This document shows, piece by piece, positions 17,433 to 62,135 of a stretch of DNA of 64,000 nucleotides. Every line of letters begins with the position of its first letter. Position 1 is the first letter of the stretch. The translations under genes and the position numbers were made by a program. The notes under the pieces were generated by a model. The model saw nothing but the letters and a program-made list of their open reading frames with translations. It did not search any database and was not told the origin of the DNA. This DNA is from Calliopsis andreniformis (Eukaryota > Arthropoda > Insecta > Hymenoptera > Andrenidae), in the NCBI RefSeq assembly GCF_051401765.1, contig NC_135069.1, positions 11,634,501-11,698,500 of the forward strand, written 5' to 3'.

Positions 17433-17521
17433 GTAATAGAGCTGACGAGACCTCACGCAACGTGTTTCAATTTTTGTGAAGATATGTAATTATTCTTTGG
17501 TCTTTTTTAATCTGTTCACAG

Positions 17522-17607
17522 GTCTTCGGTAGAACAGAAAAATTCTACGACGTTGGTAGCACCCGACAGTGGGAAAAATGTAGATTCAGCTCAACAAAAC
17601 AATCAAG
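17522..17607 (+). CDS. pan: pangolin linker exon before the HMG box
   Basis: An 86-bp exon between acceptor ttcacag and donor gtaagc. It encodes [20 protein letters not shown] and VDSAQQNNQ, a short hydrophilic linker. It accepts splicing in the same phase from either 14257 (long isoform) or 17432 (alternative first exon), so it is the first exon common to both. The last G combines with AT of the next exon to give Asp. Confidence 0.9.
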
Positions 17608-17706
17608 GTAAGCCTCGATTGTTTGAATTTGTTTCCGTGATCAGTTTATCGCTTATTTTTAATTATGAAAGTCGCTTCTCATACCACACTTCGATGACGT
17701 TGACAG

Positions 17707-17837
17707 ATAAAAAGAAACCCCACATAAAAAAGCCTTTGAACGCATTTATGCTATACATGAAGGAGATGAGGGCAAAGGTCGTGGCGGAATGTACCTTAAA
17801 AGAAAGTGCTGCAATCAACCAAATATTGGGAAGACGA
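17707..17837 (+). CDS. pan: pangolin HMG box, N-terminal half
   Basis: A 131-bp exon between acceptor ttgacag and donor gtgagt. It encodes [20 protein letters not shown], then [24 protein letters not shown]. This is the first half of the TCF/LEF HMG box, essentially identical to Drosophila Pangolin and vertebrate LEF1/TCF7L2: minor-groove wedge region [15 protein letters not shown] and helix 2 [12 protein letters not shown]. It ends in phase 0 after Arg, so either downstream half-box exon can follow. Confidence 0.98.
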
Positions 17838-18728
17838 GTGAGTAATGACTATATATTTTTTACTGTTGAACATTTTTATTGGAAATCTGTTACATCAGGG
17901 TTTATACGAAAGATTTTGAGAAGAATTTGCTCTTTCACATTTTATTTGACAGCAGTCAATATTTTTACGTTACATTAAGAACTTGTTTTAGGTCCTTGTC
18001 AATACCAAATATTTAGTTTGTTTTAATACAGTTGTTTCAAATTACACTGTTTGAAACAAAATATTAGAAAAATGTCTGAAACCCTGATGTAAATATAGTA
18101 AACACGTGCCAAAGTCAAGATTTTCTTCTGTTTTCTTTTTTCTTTTTTACTTAATTTATTGCCGCCGCTTAGCCATTTTGGAAATACTAACAACATGTAA
18201 TTAAGGAAGATTTACGATACAACTATCACTGGTCAGTAATCAATCGATACCAAATACTTGTCATTTGAATAACTCTCAAGGGTATATGCAATGACTTTCG
18301 TGGCCGAACTTGGAGGCAAATGTTGACTTGGCAATCAAAAAATAACAACTTAGAGATTTTACAAGCGTACAGATGTCCTCAACGGCGATCATAAGTTGCA
18401 TGCATTTTAGCTCTATCCGTTGGTCGTCCGTAAACTAGGTTGAAACACTAACTTGATCCGTTAGTAACGTAGTAGAAGTAAAGAGAGAGCATCGTAGGTG
18501 GGATCTAAGGAAATCTAGGGCATAAGACGAGTGGGTTGGGATCGGATCGTCGATCGAGCAAAGGGGTGGGTGCGACGAGGAATACACCTTCCTCTTAAGG
18601 GTAAAAGAGTTGTTAAAGAAATAACAATAAAAGATTAGAAAAGAAACGTGAAAAAGCTTGAAAGGGACACGGTGCACGGATGAATACTGTGAAACTGTGA
18701 ATCTGAATTTTGGGGGTATGACACGCAG
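17838..18728. other. pangolin intron
   Basis: Intron between the HMG-box halves, ending tgacacgcag before TGG. No other exon or element is recognisable. The open frames on the minus strand near 18.4-18.9 kb are shadows of GC-rich sequence. Confidence 0.75.
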
Positions 18729-36899: not shown

Positions 36900-37290
36900 A
36901 TGGTTATATGGCTTATTTTCCGCCGCTCGACGAAAGCCCGAAATTGTTTTATACTATGGTAGAATTAATTTTAACAGGCGGCTCAGGGTCACTCAGCCCC
37001 TTACGCGCCTTTCTGGTGGGTTCCCCCACCGCGGCAGTTCCTGGTGCGCGCGGACGCACTTGCCGCGCGTGTGGAATATCCGTGAGCTCATTCCTCTGTC
37101 CTACCAGAAAGGCGCGTGAGGGGCTGAGTGACCCTGAGCCGCCTGTTGAAATTAATTCTACCATAGTCGCCACATGCAGGACCCTTAGCTATCGAAAATA
37201 TAAAAGACAATTTCGAACGAACTCTGACTTTCGCATCTGGTAACAATCAAATAAACAATTGCTTCGTCGAGCGGAGGAAGGACCGAGTCG
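36900..37290 (+). mobile_element. LTR-like remnant with a nested palindrome
   Basis: Positions about 37200-37280 (GCATCTGGTAACAATCAAATAAACAATTGCTTCGTCGAGCGG) resemble the 3' end of the solo LTR at 40168-41586 (CACATCTGGCAGCAATAAACGCGATTGCCTCTTCGAACGG), including the AATAAA signal. The left side has TCCGCCGCTCGACGAA near 36919. The 213-bp palindrome at 36954-37166 is inserted inside. A gypsy reverse-transcriptase fragment follows at 37330. Edges are uncertain. Confidence 0.5.
36954..37166 (+). mobile_element. 213-bp palindromic MITE, copy 1
   Basis: Begins CTATGGTAGAATTAATTTTA and ends with the reverse complement TAATTCTACCATAG. The arms (about 75 bp each, with CAGGCGGCTCAGGGTCACTC) pair almost perfectly around a GC-rich centre. 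Because it is palindromic, both strands show similar open frames (GGSGSLSP...), which are not genes. Copy 2 is at 38058-38270 in the opposite orientation of the central part. Confidence 0.88.
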
Positions 37291-37329
37291 ATTGTACCTA
37301 TTCTTGTTAAAAATTTGTATATTTATAGA

Positions 37330-37650
37330 AAATATTACTATTACGCGTTTATCGATGATTTCCTAATAGCATCCGCCGACGAGAAACAGCACTATGAACA
37401 TTTAAACATTTTATTTAAACATTTGAACAAATTTGGCGTAGTAATGAATCCTGCGAAGTGTACTTTTGGGGTTTCTGAAATCACCTTTCTCGGGTACACG
37501 GTCAACGAACACGGTATTAGATCTTTAGCCGATCGTGTTGAGGCTATAACGAAGTTTAGACAGCCGATGACGGTAAAGCAACTTCGGCGATACTTAGGTA
37601 TGGTCAATTTTTTTTGTATATTTATAGAAAATATCGTTTCATCCCCAGCT
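37330..37650 (+). pseudogene. Gypsy-type reverse transcriptase fragment
   Basis: About 105 codons of the RT core of a Ty3/gypsy retrotransposon. Visible are the catalytic Asp pair in YAFIDDFLIAS (the Y-x-DD box, here FIDD), HLNILFKHLNKFGVVMNPAKC, ITFLGYTVNEHGI, and LRRYLGMVNFF, the conserved order of this family. It has no start of its own and runs into stops after 37686, so it is a fragment of a pol gene. The same 22 bases (TTTGTATATTTATAGAAAAT and two more) occur at 37314 and 37613, at both ends of the fragment. Confidence 0.9.
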
Positions 37651-37686
37651 TTAGTCGTCTATTCTAATTTCGGAAGAAACACCTAG

Positions 37687-47551: not shown

Positions 47552-50500
47552 TTACTGTTCGCATTTGGATGGACACCCGGTTTTAGCATCCGAGAAGAAG
47601 TATAAGCTCAACACATTCACCGCATTCAACGTATAAACATTCGGAGTCTTAAGATTAGAATTTTCTACGAACACTTTGGCCATCTTCATGATATTCTCGC
47701 ATTTCATTACACAGGCTGCTCCATCGAAGCTTGGTTTACCCTGCTCGCTCCTGGCACAAGGGTCAAATAAGTAGAACTTTCCATAATGTTGCATAACCGC
47801 AACCGCCATGTTAGTTGTGTGAAGAATGCCAGCGCAATTCGATCGGAAGAACATGGCCAGAGACTCTGACAAGTCAAAGGTATGAAGTAATCCAGCCGTA
47901 GTGTGATTGTGAATGTGTATCGTGGCACGGAAATCGCCAACGATAAAAACTGTAAGGAGTTCACTAGGCGATAAATTTCTAAAGCCAGGACGCGCAGCGC
48001 GCACGCTATCTGAGTGCAACAGGTCCCCGTACTTCAGTATAACGTCGATGAGTTCGGGTGTCCAGGTTGAAGGGACATGAAGAAGTCCCACAACAATGGC
48101 TACAGCTGCGATAGCAGTACTTTGGAAACCACGGGTCATGGTACTCCAAGTACGGTGGTTCATATGTAAACTGCCACGCAGCACACTGAGTTCTTCGTCC
48201 ACGATACGGTATTCTGTTACTGTCTCTACATCTAATGTGGTGTTTTTCTTCATAGGTTGCACCGGAATCGAAGGAGACACGCAGTCAAAGTATGGCCTGA
48301 AACCTGCAGGACACGGTAAAGGCTCGATCATAGCAGTTCTGATGATAACTCTGCAAATCTCGTAGCGACCGTATTTCTCTTGCTCGTCGATATTGGCAAA
48401 TAAAACCTCGTAGAGCGGTTCTACGCAAGCGAACCACATCACACACGAGGTACCATAGAAGTCAGGTAACCCTTGATCGCTACGTGCCCGCGAATCATAC
48501 ATAAAATACACGCCCATATCTTTCCAAATAGCCACCATTCCACGATCAGTGACCAAAATTCCAGCTCGATTGTTCTCAAAGAACTTCTGAATTCCTTGTT
48601 CCAATAGAATTGGTGGAGGTGGTGGAGCACGCACTCTTGTTGGAGTTCTACTCTTTTTCCCTCTAGTTCCCCTGGCTCTTCGTGCTCCACCTCGTCTTCT
48701 CTTCTTCTTATCTTCGGGAGCAGGCGGAGGAATCGCAACTATACCAGAAACCGTGCCAGGCTCTATGTCGGCAGTTAGAATATTAACACCTACATAGAAT
48801 ACCCTGATAATATCTTTAGGTTTAATTCGTAATATTGTTGGTTTAGCCTTTTGAGTTTCTCTGTGAACATTAATTCCAATTGCTAGAATTTCATCCATGG
48901 TTTTCCTCGTCCAAGTAATGGGACTTTTTACAACGGACATTCCAAGAGCGACAACACAGTTAGCAGCAGTCTGCTTATTCCGGAAGGATTCTGGAAAGAT
49001 CTCATCTCCCTGATGATAGCTGCCACGAAGGATTGCTCGAGCTTCTCCATGTACTCTCCTGTAAGCGTTCAACGGAGGTAGATTTGAAGGACGAACAGCT
49101 GAGCTTGGGTCGAATCTCCAAGGAGGAAGTTTGTTCCAATTGACTACATCAATTGCGATCAGCTCATAGTCTCCGTCACTTCCAAGGAAATCTAACAAAT
49201 ACTTCACCAGAGTTTCCTTATTTGCAAAGCGTAGAACTTTAGGTGCAACCGTTGTGGTTTCCCCTGTTGTTGTCACCCAAGTAGGTATCAAAGCGTAATA
49301 CTCGTGATCGGACTTCCAAACAGCTATATTTTTATTCCCACTTACACTTAGAGCACCTGAGATACATCGTGAGAAGAATTTATCGATGCCTGATTGCAGA
49401 TCCTGAACCTTTGGTGGTTTCGCGGTCAAACTGCCAGCTTGTACGCAGTCCTTGATTGTCAAGTTAATACGGCGATTCGAAAGGAAGAATTCTGTCATGA
49501 TATCATTGATTCTCGGTGTAGCACTCTCTCCGAGTCTCTCAACACATTTTGAGTGTAATTTGTCACCAGTAACGATAACTTCATCGAGTACTGCTTGTGT
49601 CCAGTATCGTGGCTCGTAAACCTTCGAGAAAACAATAGCCATAACTGCAATAGCTGCCGTCTGTTTGTCGCGATTAGCCTCCGCAAACCTCTCGTCATCC
49701 AATTTCACTGTGCCATCGATATTCCAAACACCTTCGGTCATTTTAGCAAAGTTATACCAAGGGTTATCCCCTGAAGTTGGCTTCGTTGGGCGTTCCCCTT
49801 CGGCAACTCGCGTTTCGTAAGCATTATCTAAATTAACATTATCAATAACAAAGTCCTCTCCTGTGGCAACTGCTTGGATCGAAGTAACTAATGATGCGAT
49901 ATCAGTAAACCACATTACAGCAGCTGTACCATCTCTTTCTCGTGGTTCAGCTCGGGTGTCCCTTCCTTTGGGATCCATTGTAAAATATATGTCGCCTTCC
50001 CTCCAAATGGGCATCATTATATTGTCTTGCCTAAATATACCCATGGCATTCGCTTCAAAAAAAGCTTCCAACTGCGCTTCTAAGTCTGTCATTTTACCCG
50101 AAATAGCCTCTTCTTCAAGCTCAACATACATTCGATTTACTCCGACGGTAAAGTCCTCGCTAATTTCACTAGGAAGAAGGTAATTTCTTGGTGTCTCTTC
50201 TGTCGTGTCTGCTTCTTCAAGATTCTCTAAATTGTCCATAGCAATCTTGTCGCCTAGCTTCAATATGTCATCAAGTACTTCTCTATACCACAGATGTGGA
50301 TTGTATAATTTCGTCATTGCCAGGGTAACCAAGGCACTTGCTGCTTGCTGCTTGTCTCTAGTATGACGCTTAAACATTACCTCATTAGCCTGATTAAAAC
50401 TGCCTAATAGAATGGCCCCAGTATCTCCTACGCTATAGTAATTGTATAAATCAGGTTTCACCGGAATTAGTTTATCTGCTTCTATTTCCTCTTCAGTCAT

Positions 50501-52954
50501 TTCAGGACCAATGGAAATACTCTTTATGTCGTGGATAGCGAATTCACTTTCAGGTTCTGGGTCGTGACCTGCGTTTGTTTCGATCAATTTCGCAAGCACA
50601 GGTAAACTCAGAGTTCGAATTGCGCAGGCTACACCTTCCTCTTCATCCTCTGGTGACGATAAGCCTAAATTATTTCTAGGATTAGGATCGAAACAGTAGT
50701 ACACGTTCTGTTTTACTACGTCGTCCTTTTCTTGGACATCCTCTTCAACTTTCCATACAGCTAGGCTCAAATTCTTCAAATCAATGATACCATATTGATG
50801 ATTTTCAAAAAACTGATTCAATGCTGTCAATAAATTTGGCACATCGCTGTCATCCGGTGATGTCAAATCCCCAACAATTGTTCCTTCTTCCACGTCAATT
50901 CTTATTTTTCTATTCTTAAAATACAAATTTTTCTTCAAATTAGATACAAAAAAATAATGCTCGCTGTCTTCATCGAGCTTCATAGAAGAAATGCACCAAT
51001 TATAGTAAGCATCTCCTTCTCGAACTATTGTGTCAATCGTCTCATCTGTCCATCTCGATGGTGGCGTTTCTCTAGCACTAATCAACGCCACGACTGGCAT
51101 AGCGAGTCCTTGAATACCACGACTTTCATCTTCAAAGTCTTCATCCTCGTTAGATATCTTTCCTTGCAGTACCCATGTTTCTCCAGCTATTCCAGGTTGG
51201 AAATCGAACCAGGGTCTGGTCCCGGGGATGTCATCCAAGATTGTAATGTGCCTAATAGTAAAACGATCGTTTTTCTTCGCAAGCTCAACATTTTTCCAAT
51301 ACAAAGCAGCCAGTGTATCAGCATTAGGAAATCTGATTACACAACAATTTCCTTTTTTTCTTGGCGCATCCGCCTTGGCGCCTTTTCCGCCTTTCTCATC
51401 ACGAACTCTAACACCAATGGGGTCACATTGACGAGGATCGAACATGTAAAAACAGTCATCCTGACTCCAAATCGCTACAGACATTGCTGAAGATTCAATT
51501 ACACCTTCAGTGTTAACTAAAAAGAACTCGTCTAATGCTTGTCTTAAGTTTAACACTGTTGGGATCTTAGAACTGATTGTACCAGTGACTGTGATGAGGT
51601 CCACATCGATAACTAACTTCCTGTCCTCCACTTGAATTTTCACATCGTATAAATCAGACGCAGTCATGTTCCTTATCATTGGTTTCTCCGATTTCACATC
51701 TGCATACAATGTATCCCCTAATGCTAATATTTCATCCAACTTTGGCCTTAGCCACGTTTTCACAGGATGAACCTTTTTCATGGCAATAGCCATCACGCAA
51801 TTCGCCACATTCTGCGCTCCCTTACCCTTGTACATTTCGCTCGCTTCATGTGTCAAACCATGAAGAATTGCCATATTTCCAGGTAATTCTCTGAACGTCG
51901 ATGGTACATTCACGTGCATATTCTCATAGTTATAACCAGTGTCAAAGTTATTTTGATCTACTAAAGGATCAGTGGCAAAACGTTTGTCAATGCTGTAATT
52001 TGAAATGGTAATCGACAAAGGTTCCCTGTGAATCTTGGCGGTTGTGGCAGCTTTCACCTTGTCTCCTTTAGGTACTGGTTTAGTGCAATCCATTTTGTTC
52101 TCATCAATATCTACAGGATTGATGGCACGAAGGACACTTTTGTCTACTGTTAAATGAGTAGCACTTGGAAGGCGATCGATGTATCCACGACCAACCTCTG
52201 CCACTCGCAAAATGGTCACCTTGTCAATGCAATACCTAGAGTCATATCGTTTGTCCATGCTTTTAAGGAAGTGCTCACATATATCATGCAAGCATTTGAA
52301 TCTCATGACACATGCTACACCTTCCGGATGGCGAACACCTTCTTCGTCACAAGGAGCTGGATCAAAGTATAAAAAACCGATATCAGGGTGACGCCACATA
52401 GCGGTTGACGTGCCTTGAGCTGTAACCACACCAGAGTCACTGCTTTGAAAAAACTTTCGCAAGCCATCCGTGAAATCTGGACAGCCTACAGTTTCGCTGA
52501 AAAGATTTCCATAAATACCCGTCTCTTCAATGCAAACTAAAACTTTGTAATTAGAAATGTAGAATTCTGGGTGAACCAGCTTGGCTTTCATATATTCGTC
52601 CTCTTTGACTCGGTTCCTCATGACGCTAGTGCGAAATACTTTGTCACCATATTCCAACACTTGATTCACATAATCTTGAACCCATTCTTTCGGTTCAAAA
52701 AGACGCCCATATACAATAGCTACTATTGACGCTGGAGCAGCTTGGCGACCGCGACTTCGATATTTAAAATGAAGATCGTTCATTGCAAAGGAACCTCGCA
52801 GAATCGCAGAATTCGGTGTCAGAATTCGAAATTTGTGCCATCTCCTTCCAACTTCTCGAATTACTAGCTTGCGCTTTGGAGCAGCATCACCTTCTCCAGA
52901 TGTTCCGGGAGTATTCTTGATATCTGTCTTCTTCTCCGCAGTCTCGGCCGACAT
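47552..52954 (-). CDS. Intronless 1800-aa protein, seven tandem deubiquitinase-like pseudoenzyme domains
   Basis: One uninterrupted frame from ATG at 52954 (context TAAACATG) to TAA at 47552. The protein is seven diverged copies of a ~200-residue domain, starting near residues 50, 362, 594, 847, 1076, 1307 and 1590. Each begins with an ILRGSF-type motif (degenerate in some). Each then has Gln (71, 381, 615, 869, 1098, 1328, 1611), Trp exactly 20 residues later, Gly-Asp 12 after that (Gly-Ile in copy 6), an FF-x-N-x-x-GI stretch, and a (F/Y)D(P/S)-x-x-R/C...G strand (lost in copy 5). This order resembles herpesvirus-tegument/C76-type deubiquitinases (Q-C-x-x-N...; D-S-H...G). The Cys position is A72, N382, G616, Q870, T1099, T1329, S1612. 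The His after F-D-P/S is A200, R508, N758, K996, R1489, C1733. All copies look non-catalytic. Copy 6 carries a Lys/Arg-Pro insert (1416-1449). No signal peptide or membrane segment is seen. Fold assignment is inference; repeats and spacing are seen directly. Confidence 0.85.
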   Translation of the reverse strand: MSAETAEKKTDIKNTPGTSGEGDAAPKRKLVIREVGRRWHKFRILTPNSAILRGSFAMNDLHFKYRSRGRQAAPASIVAIVYGRLFEPKEWVQDYVNQVLEYGDKVFRTSVMRNRVKEDEYMKAKLVHPEFYISNYKVLVCIEETGIYGNLFSETVGCPDFTDGLRKFFQSSDSGVVTAQGTSTAMWRHPDIGFLYFDPAPCDEEGVRHPEGVACVMRFKCLHDICEHFLKSMDKRYDSRYCIDKVTILRVAEVGRGYIDRLPSATHLTVDKSVLRAINPVDIDENKMDCTKPVPKGDKVKAATTAKIHREPLSITISNYSIDKRFATDPLVDQNNFDTGYNYENMHVNVPSTFRELPGNMAILHGLTHEASEMYKGKGAQNVANCVMAIAMKKVHPVKTWLRPKLDEILALGDTLYADVKSEKPMIRNMTASDLYDVKIQVEDRKLVIDVDLITVTGTISSKIPTVLNLRQALDEFFLVNTEGVIESSAMSVAIWSQDDCFYMFDPRQCDPIGVRVRDEKGGKGAKADAPRKKGNCCVIRFPNADTLAALYWKNVELAKKNDRFTIRHITILDDIPGTRPWFDFQPGIAGETWVLQGKISNEDEDFEDESRGIQGLAMPVVALISARETPPSRWTDETIDTIVREGDAYYNWCISSMKLDEDSEHYFFVSNLKKNLYFKNRKIRIDVEEGTIVGDLTSPDDSDVPNLLTALNQFFENHQYGIIDLKNLSLAVWKVEEDVQEKDDVVKQNVYYCFDPNPRNNLGLSSPEDEEEGVACAIRTLSLPVLAKLIETNAGHDPEPESEFAIHDIKSISIGPEMTEEEIEADKLIPVKPDLYNYYSVGDTGAILLGSFNQANEVMFKRHTRDKQQAASALVTLAMTKLYNPHLWYREVLDDILKLGDKIAMDNLENLEEADTTEETPRNYLLPSEISEDFTVGVNRMYVELEEEAISGKMTDLEAQLEAFFEANAMGIFRQDNIMMPIWREGDIYFTMDPKGRDTRAEPRERDGTAAVMWFTDIASLVTSIQAVATGEDFVIDNVNLDNAYETRVAEGERPTKPTSGDNPWYNFAKMTEGVWNIDGTVKLDDERFAEANRDKQTAAIAVMAIVFSKVYEPRYWTQAVLDEVIVTGDKLHSKCVERLGESATPRINDIMTEFFLSNRRINLTIKDCVQAGSLTAKPPKVQDLQSGIDKFFSRCISGALSVSGNKNIAVWKSDHEYYALIPTWVTTTGETTTVAPKVLRFANKETLVKYLLDFLGSDGDYELIAIDVVNWNKLPPWRFDPSSAVRPSNLPPLNAYRRVHGEARAILRGSYHQGDEIFPESFRNKQTAANCVVALGMSVVKSPITWTRKTMDEILAIGINVHRETQKAKPTILRIKPKDIIRVFYVGVNILTADIEPGTVSGIVAIPPPAPEDKKKRRRGGARRARGTRGKKSRTPTRVRAPPPPPILLEQGIQKFFENNRAGILVTDRGMVAIWKDMGVYFMYDSRARSDQGLPDFYGTSCVMWFACVEPLYEVLFANIDEQEKYGRYEICRVIIRTAMIEPLPCPAGFRPYFDCVSPSIPVQPMKKNTTLDVETVTEYRIVDEELSVLRGSLHMNHRTWSTMTRGFQSTAIAAVAIVVGLLHVPSTWTPELIDVILKYGDLLHSDSVRAARPGFRNLSPSELLTVFIVGDFRATIHIHNHTTAGLLHTFDLSESLAMFFRSNCAGILHTTNMAVAVMQHYGKFYLFDPCARSEQGKPSFDGAACVMKCENIMKMAKVFVENSNLKTPNVYTLNAVNVLSLYFFSDAKTGCPSKCEQ

Positions 52955-60795: not shown

Positions 60796-62135
60796 ATACA
60801 GTGAGTGCAAAAAGTATTTATACAGCGAGTAAATTCAAATCCCTTTGTATAACTCAGTCTATTTATAAAATTTTATAAAATGTACAACTGGTATATAATT
60901 TTATAAATGGCTAGAGTCAAATTAAAAAAAAACTGTATAGATATTCAAATAATTTTCGAAAAAAGTCAACAAAATTCCATTTTAGGTAAAAACAGCCGCG
61001 TAAAAAGTATTTGTACAGCACTTGTTTAGGACTACAATGTATATTGTAAATAATGGTCGGTCACCTCTGTACAGTATTTAACTGTGCCAGTATGTTTAAA
61101 ATCACTATTACAATCGGTAGCGTTTAAAATCTGACAGTATTAACGACTATAGAGCATAGTGGATCGAAAAAGCGTAGGAGCGACCATTAAAGAGAGGAAC
61201 ATAATTATAATTAGTATCATTAATAGACCTTAATTTACGATTCAAGACATAATTCATCGATACGAATTATATAAAACAATAAAAAATAATTTCAGAAGTG
61301 GGCGTTCACAAAAAATTAGTAAACATGTCGAACAAATTATTTTTCATATGATTAATAAAAATCCCAAACTAAGTGCATGTAAAATTGCAGATAATCTTAA
61401 TAATCTTCTAGATGGCAAGATTTCACTTACTACCACTACAAATTTTTCACGGACACAAGGATATGATAGCAGAATAGTACGTAGGAAATGTTTTGTCAGT
61501 GACCAAAATAGAACAAAGAGATTAGAATTCGCGAAAACTTATAGAAATGCTGACATCAACTACTGCAATTATGTAGTTTTTACAAGCGAAAATACATTTA
61601 ATATCTTCAGCTCCGATAGATGTTATACTGTATGGAGAAAAAAAATTAAGCTTATAATGTTCAAAATTTAGAGCCTACTGTGAAGCATGATGGTGTGTCT
61701 GTGTTTGGGATTTCACGAGTGCTGCTGGAGCTGGAGAATTGCATTTCATAGAAGGGATCATGGATAATGAACTACATATATATTAACATTTTAAAAACAA
61801 ACCTCCATGCTAGTGTGGAAAAATTAGGAATTAGACATAATTTTGTCTTTATGCTGGACAATGACCCCAAGCATTTTGCTTATAATACAAGGATATGGAT
61901 ATTATATAATACATCATCATATATGAAAATCCCCTCAGTCATCAAATGTAAATGTAATAGAACTTACTTAGAAAAAAATATAGGAAAACCTAAGTATTTC
62001 TTCAAAAGAAACGTTGAAAAATGCAATACGGAAAGAATAGTACAAAATTACATATCGTGTGGCGAACACTCTTACATTATTTGCCGTAGCAGCAGTAAAT
62101 GTCCAAGGAACCCTTACTTGCTAGAATTTTAGTTT
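60796..62135 (+). mobile_element. Decayed Tc1-like element
   Basis: The left end ACAGTGAGTGCAAAAAGTAT and TTATACAGCG is typical of Tc1-type inverted repeats. A related string (CGCGTAAAAAGTATTTGTAC) recurs at about 60,998, so the end region is repeated. The transposase remnant follows. No matching right end was found before 62,200, so the element is truncated or diverged at its 3' side. Confidence 0.7.
61180..62132 (+). pseudogene. Tc1-like transposase, degenerate
   Basis: The N-part is broken (ATIKERN near 61183, NFRSGRSQKISKHVEQIIFH near 61291). A 107-codon frame has NPKLSACKIADNLNN (second helix-turn-helix) and FTSENTFNIFSSDRCYTVWR (family F-T-D-E-S-x-F: the catalytic Asp is replaced by Ser). 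After a frameshift comes EPTVKHDGVSVFGI, then KLGIRHNFVFMLDNDPKHFA (second catalytic region, D-N-D-P-K-H present). The third-acid region (SPDLNPIE) is not recognisable. With frameshifts and a missing catalytic Asp it is inactive. Confidence 0.87.

Follow-up and report, generated by a model that had tools for sequence, protein, structure and literature searches.

Seven inactive tegument-like deubiquitinase domains in one bee gene, and beetle relatives that keep catalytic residues in repeat 3

The window analyzed here is a stretch of 64,000 nucleotides from the 1.02-Gb genome of the bee Calliopsis andreniformis (contig NC_135069.1, positions 11,634,501 to 11,698,500). Its minus strand carries an open reading frame at positions 47552 to 52954 that starts with ATG, contains no internal stop, and comprises 1,800 codons. 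The initial annotation, which gave no strand, had described an intact frame of this size, and its borders proved to be exact. The features of the gene are listed below with their amino acid (aa) positions.

47552..52954, minus strand: reading frame of 1,800 aa with seven inactive tegument-like (VTD/C76-like) domains
52169..52822, minus strand: repeat 1 (aa 45-262), Ala at the Cys site and Ala at the His site, ubiquitin-tail acid lost
51887..52042, minus strand: conserved second half of the linker between repeats 1 and 2 (aa 305-356)
51206..51886, minus strand: repeat 2 (aa 357-583), Asn at the Cys site and Arg at the His site, structure predicted
51161..51211, minus strand: W-box junction of repeats 2 and 3 (aa 582-598), present in beetles too
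50474..51190, minus strand: repeat 3 (aa 589-827), Gly at the Cys site and Asn at the His site, probably corresponding to the beetle repeat with retained catalytic residues
49778..50431, minus strand: repeat 4 (aa 842-1059), Gln at the Cys site and Lys at the His site, contact loop cut to ~4 residues
49712..49759, minus strand: W-box junction of repeats 4 and 5 (aa 1066-1081), present in beetles too
49094..49741, minus strand: repeat 5 (aa 1072-1287), Thr at the Cys site, catalytic Asp lost too (Ile)
48317..49051, minus strand: repeat 6 (aa 1302-1546), Thr at the Cys site and Arg at the His site, presumed oxyanion-type Gln retained
48611..48733, minus strand: Lys/Arg/Pro-rich stretch replacing the ubiquitin-contact loop of repeat 6 (aa 1408-1448)
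47561..48202, minus strand: repeat 7 (aa 1585-1798), Ser at the Cys site and Cys at the His site, contact loop cut to ~6 residues

A hidden Markov model (HMM) built from the seven pieces found exactly seven domains, in agreement with the seven copies of one domain noticed earlier, and its envelopes (aa 45-265, 357-583, 589-827, 842-1059, 1072-1287, 1302-1546, and 1585-1798) together fill the protein. Because the HMM was trained on these same pieces, it serves to set the borders and is not independent proof. The reported spacing of a Gln (positions 71, 381, 615, 869, 1098, 1328, and 1611), a Trp 20 residues later, and a Gly 12 residues after that was confirmed in all seven repeats; 0.0265 occurrences were expected per shuffled protein, and none of 2,000 shuffles contained more than one. 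Two further motifs said to occur in most repeats had been overstated: the strict form of FF-x-N-x-x-GI is present in 3 of 7, and the homologous site fits (F/Y)D(P/S) in 5 of 7, with MDP in repeat 4 and IP in repeat 5. Of the 40 columns with the highest conservation between repeats, 32 are aliphatic or aromatic, which we read as the core of the fold. Conservation extends to the linkers: aa 305-356 had a mean majority fraction of 0.75, compared to 0.74 for repeat 2 (57 full-length rows), and aa 1288-1301 reached 0.84, above every repeat. An antisense frame of 177 codons inside the gene (50957-51490, plus strand) is probably an incidental consequence of the coding sequence opposite to it.

The proposed kinship with C76-type peptidases was borne out, as the whole protein matched the Pfam model Herpes_teg_N with 27.8 bits (curated cutoff, 25) and the predicted structure of repeat 2 was a VTD papain-like fold. 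The best match by rank, in both sequence and structure, was the helitron domain 8ADD (DrT1-VTD2), placed above the viral entries. 8ADD is an active enzyme with the catalytic motifs Gln-Cys and Asp-Ser-His, whereas the seven repeats of the window lack both Cys and His. The M48-type herpesvirus large tegument deubiquitinase (DUB) 2J7Q is viral and active; its ubiquitin-touching loop is altered in window repeats 4, 6, and 7. Modeling of repeats 2 to 5 together resulted in a pLDDT of 83.3 and a pTM of 0.44 (alignment of 39 rows). The combination of high per-domain pLDDT and low pTM is consistent with beads on a string, and the low pTM may be an effect of the shallow alignment. No second Pfam domain in the frame exceeded its cutoff, comparison of the protein with PHROGs gave nothing better than an E value of 0.041, a phmmer search of the single protein against the PDB returned one match only (E value of 0.96), and no Rfam matches were obtained within the window at gathering thresholds. 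A search of the bee's own genome with PF04843 was silent, as were its controls, and it is thus uninformative.

This type of gene is already known in insects, because Erven et al. (2022; PMC9741609) describe, in the available text, insect proteins with several inactive VTD copies, termed likely devoid of activity, and favor a kinship of insect VTDs with those of helitrons. Five Drosophila genes of this inactive VTD (iVTD) kind are given there, CG32436 (5 copies), CG939 (3), CG4669 (2), CG14402 (1), and CG32462 (1), all testis specific, and the Discussion names beetles among the insects with VTD genes. Like the Drosophila iVTDs, the window gene consists of tegument-like DUB domain copies without active-site residues, outside a recognizable transposon: the frame holds no other Pfam domain above its cutoff, and a search of the genome gave, among the best candidates, a single full-length match to the gene. 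It has seven copies, kept through Hymenoptera, compared to up to five in the named Drosophila proteins. Neither an active-site Cys nor Asp-x-His is found in its repeats, which are VTD copies missing one or more active-site residues. We regard it as practically certain that the locus is a cellular insect gene of the iVTD kind whose domains are dead, which upholds the initial reading of a chain of dead deubiquitinase-like domains.

Homologues with 38-85% identity were found in bees, wasps, ants, sawflies, and parasitoid wasps (5,291 candidates scored); the top homologue reached 85%, and that of Xylocopa violacea reached 82%. The 67 homologues comprise 66 proteins that are hymenopteran wherever the source names them and one from the firefly Pyrocoelia. 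Proteins of ~1,800 aa were widespread, and 56 of 68 (window protein plus 67) had exactly seven repeat hits; therefore, the frame is no accident. The remaining 12 were ten short proteins (1,087-1,528 aa) with four to six hits, P0013 (low quality) with eight, and the firefly protein P0067, which also had eight because its repeat 4 is split. The repeats of the bee, a sawfly, and Orussus formed seven clades, one per repeat, each with a bootstrap support of 100, which points to an old array within Hymenoptera.

The Cys-site residues of window repeats 1 to 7 are Ala, Asn, Gly, Gln, Thr, Thr, and Ser; the Asp of Asp-x-His is present in 6 of 7 repeats, and the His is present in none. Both residues were located by means of the FDSH motif, since the 8ADD chain as printed is one residue short of the paper numbering in this region. 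Cys was absent from all 447 residues aligned to the seven sites in the 67 homologues. Among the 438 hymenopteran repeats (window included), none had Cys, six had His (two of them in P0013, labeled low quality by the source), and none had both. The survey for a copy keeping Cys and His, suggested by the initial annotation, was thus negative in these 67 homologues and positive elsewhere, in repeat 3 of six beetle proteins (see below). Each repeat has its own substitute at the Cys site, nearly fixed across Hymenoptera: Ala in 51/61 rows for repeat 1, Asn in 63/67 for repeat 2, Gly in 59/67 for repeat 3, Gln in 65/67 for repeat 4, Thr or Ser in 65/66 for repeat 5, Thr in 46/60 for repeat 6, and Ser in 56/59 for repeat 7.

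Other residues of the old active site were retained. At three positions, the residue class was kept in at least 85% of rows: the Gln preceding the Cys site (7 of 7 repeats), the catalytic Asp (6 of 7), and the acid equivalent to E377 of 8ADD (5 of 7); the E377 site ranks within the top seven of 95 polar positions for conservation. We read this pattern as something other than random decay. The acid was lost from repeat 1 (Leu in 49/63), and repeat 3 has Asn (28) or Asp (27) in most of 66 rows. For D376, the other tail acid, a conserved equivalent is missing from all seven repeats. In the 8ADD enzyme, E377A abrogates and D376A strongly reduces the cleavage of RLRGG, and C322A, D451A, or H453A each kills activity (PMC9741609). 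The retained acid could also be a helix cap. The contact loop, 13 residues in 8ADD, has a near-normal median of 11 to 12 in repeats 1, 2, 3, and 5, compared to 4 residues in repeat 4 and 6 in repeat 7. In repeat 6, it is replaced by a median of 45 aa, of which a median of 15 are Lys/Arg and 10 are Pro (59 repeat-6 rows).

Fifteen beetle-type proteins (P0067 to P0081) were obtained, a lower bound, as only candidates sharing most words were scored. Six had exactly seven hits; seven had eight to ten, counted as seven given that repeat 4 (and, in two of them, repeat 6) was hit in pieces; P0070 and P0081 had five each. In contrast to the window gene, repeat 3 keeps Gln-Cys and Asp-Ser-His in 6 of the 14 assignable proteins, with P0081 (Diabrotica, partial) left out. 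These are P0068, P0069 (Lamprigera), P0070 (Photinus), P0078 (Coccinella), P0079 (Atheta/Dalotia), and P0080 (Tribolium madens). All six have Gln at the site that we take, after M48, to have the oxyanion role and Glu at the E377 site, and four have Asp at the D376 site. Elsewhere, repeat 3 shows Ser (Phaedon) or Gly (Anoplophora) at the Cys site with His kept, Gly with Tyr in five weevil-type proteins, and Thr with Leu in Pyrocoelia. Only six Cys occur in the 108 beetle repeat pieces, all in these repeats 3 (pieces with a gap: 11 in the Cys column, 9 in the His column). The beetle relatives thus seem to keep one working copy. In the literature searched, part of which was aimed at other subjects, we recognized no beetle multi-VTD proteins with an active repeat; seven-repeat beetle proteins with an intact repeat 3 are absent from the available text of PMC9741609, and its supplement might list some. 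Repeat 7 of 12 of the 15 beetle proteins (P0067 to P0078) retains Asp-Pro-His and has Asp at the Cys site, which, judged from the alignment, is a shared and distinct way of dying.

Correspondence between bee and beetle repeats was assessed by matching the repeats of five beetle proteins, including four of the six with an intact repeat 3 (P0068, P0069, P0078, and P0079), to seven hymenopteran repeat profiles in all 5,040 permutations. The in-order match ranked 5th on the mean and 3rd, 2nd, 4th, 28th, and 15th in the single proteins; it was never the top permutation. The top one exchanged repeats 3 and 5 for the mean and for two proteins, exchanged 1 and 5 for two others (3 staying in place), and moved 1, 3, and 5 for the remaining one. 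By raw scores, the in-order profile was best for 20 of 35 beetle repeats (profile 1 scoring high throughout), and for beetle repeat 3, profile 3 came out on top in one protein of the five. A second line of evidence is a W..F...W.L.G box at the window borders 2/3 and 4/5, for which 0.001 was expected per shuffle of the window protein. Two boxes occur in 60 of 66 hymenopteran proteins; of the 15 beetle proteins, 13 have the box at border 2/3 and 8 have it at border 4/5. The pattern behind these counts was tuned: it was relaxed after a stricter version had found nothing in the window and hits in 6 of 66 hymenopteran proteins. The location of the boxes relative to the repeat borders was established for the window, the beetle proteins, and six of the hymenopteran rows. 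The 2/3 box is shared with the window gene by five of the six intact beetle homologues, the sixth, P0070, beginning at repeat 3.

In trees, most repeats clustered by insect order and not by position, with weak deep support, and hymenopteran R2 adjoined beetle R4 in the tree that gave the bootstrap-100 clades. With catalytic columns included, R1 of both orders formed one clade (96/86), and R3 of both orders did not do so in the best tree (p-AU of 0.077); with these columns removed, R3 of both orders was one clade (82/72). Taken together, correspondence in order is moderately supported and likely, although not proven. In a tree rooted with 8ADD and including catalytic columns, R3 came first, adjoining the helitron outgroup. 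After exclusion of 29 catalytic and neighboring columns, the root fell, weakly supported, on beetle R7; R3 is therefore not put forward here as the founding copy. A single clade of all other repeats was neither shown nor rejected without the catalytic columns (p-AU of 0.202).

Hymenoptera and beetles separated more than 300 million years ago. We tentatively propose, at slightly below even confidence, that their common ancestor had one seven-domain protein with a working repeat 3 among six dead copies, that beetles display this enzyme and its stepwise death, and that Hymenoptera lost the enzyme on their stem and kept the array. That this ancestor was a DUB with a functional repeat 3 and six noncatalytic copies is by itself likely. 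If the enzyme was lost but the array was kept, selection would therefore be maintaining binding. The protein would then be a flexible, multivalent scaffold; a noncatalytic scaffold of this kind is quite likely. Conservation of the Gln, the Asp, and the acid suggests continued use of the former tail-binding groove in some repeats, with repeats 2 and 5 (near-normal loop, tail acid present) as the best candidates; most plausibly, these two still grip the C-terminal tail of ubiquitin, or that of a ubiquitin-like protein (Ubl), without cutting it. Binding of ubiquitin or a Ubl by at least one repeat is a possibility that we hold with less than even confidence. The loop losses and the basic, proline-rich stretch suggest that repeats 4, 6, and 7 may have acquired other partners. 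By analogy to the five Drosophila iVTD genes, the setting is likely the male germline, that is, the testis. As a whole, the explanation of an iVTD gene with a dead seven-domain array, a noncatalytic scaffold derived from a partly active ancestor, has in our view slightly better than even prospects.

A purely structural repeat protein, in which VTD folds are building blocks of a sperm structure (e.g., flagellar or cytoskeletal) and do not bind ubiquitin, is nearly as likely as ubiquitin binding. It would account for the mostly aliphatic or aromatic conserved columns (32/40, if these are the fold core), the lost D376, the loops altered in 3 of 7 repeats, the linker at aa 1288-1301 (0.84) that outconserves any repeat, and the testis specificity of the fly relatives (PMC9741609); however, a mere block would not obviously need the conserved Gln, Asp, and tail acid or a nearly fixed Cys-site residue. 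That the beetle seven-repeat genes arose by independent expansion, leaving their active repeat 3 uninformative on the bee gene, we consider rather unlikely. The mostly separate beetle and hymenopteran clades (weak deep support), the neighboring hymenopteran R2 and beetle R4 in one tree, and the in-order permutation being best in none of five proteins fit such an expansion, whereas common descent is favored by the in-order ranks (5 of 5,040 for the mean, 2 to 28 for single proteins), the W-boxes at two shared borders, and joint clades of R1 (96/86) and, without catalytic columns, R3 (82/72).

Hidden enzymatic activity, with a substitute nucleophile (Thr or Ser) or a shifted Cys still cutting ubiquitin, as argued for USP52, appears very improbable. 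Repeats 5, 6, and 7 do carry Thr or Ser at the Cys site, and some presumed pseudo-DUBs have been reconsidered, according to the available part of a review (PMC10919355); however, these three repeats lack His, repeat 5 lacks Asp too, no hymenopteran repeat has the Cys (0/438), and each of the three catalytic substitutions abolishes 8ADD activity (PMC9741609). The initial annotation had left open a cellular origin or capture from a large DNA virus or Maverick-type element. A cellular gene is favored here; recent capture, whether from a herpes-like virus, another large DNA virus, or a Maverick element, to which the tegument name of the matching Pfam model might point, has hardly any probability left in view of homologues throughout Hymenoptera (38-85% identity) and in beetles, a helitron domain that outranks the viral ones in sequence and structure, a frame without further Pfam domains over the cutoff, and the helitron kinship favored in PMC9741609.

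Should the proposed seven-domain ancestor be real, these genes would form a natural series from an enzyme-plus-reader to a pure reader of a ubiquitin or Ubl tag in the male germline. Dead DUB relatives are well known; a domain apparently alive in some lineages and dead in others is directly testable and could show whether the loss of catalysis leaves a ubiquitin-binding surface or a mere fold. Beetle repeat 3 also bears on the "likely devoid of activity" statement for insect multicopy VTDs in PMC9741609.

The same genome carries a second multicopy VTD-type gene on contig C1 (~8041796-8048898, within region C1:8036000-8053000), which extends over several open frames and is presumably broken by introns. 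It has seven iVTD-like stretches, some very weak, if two adjoining pieces are taken as one, together with acidic low-complexity linkers and decayed repeats. Its repeats showed no order match to the window gene (rank 3508 of 5,040). Relatives occur in Neodiprion, Vespa, Trichogramma, and others, again a lower bound, as only candidates sharing most words were scored. For the same reason, the lack of fly or moth sequences among the matches of this and the beetle search is uninformative. Among the 53 pieces of this group, Cys occupies the Cys site in two (one from this genome and one from Neodiprion), and His occurs in none. Compared to the window gene, the second gene is more decayed and multiframe.

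In the neighborhood of the window gene, 17 distinct open reading frames were scanned among 110 of at least 80 aa. Two of them are fragments of other mobile elements ~10 kb from the gene: a reverse transcriptase fragment (PF00078) at 37255-37686 (plus strand) and a Tc3-type transposase fragment (PF01498) at 61234-61671 (plus strand). A partial HMG box at 17511-17975 (plus strand), with LEF as the closest PDB sequence (2LEF; E value of 1.5e-16), is probably an exon of a TCF/LEF-type (pangolin) gene.
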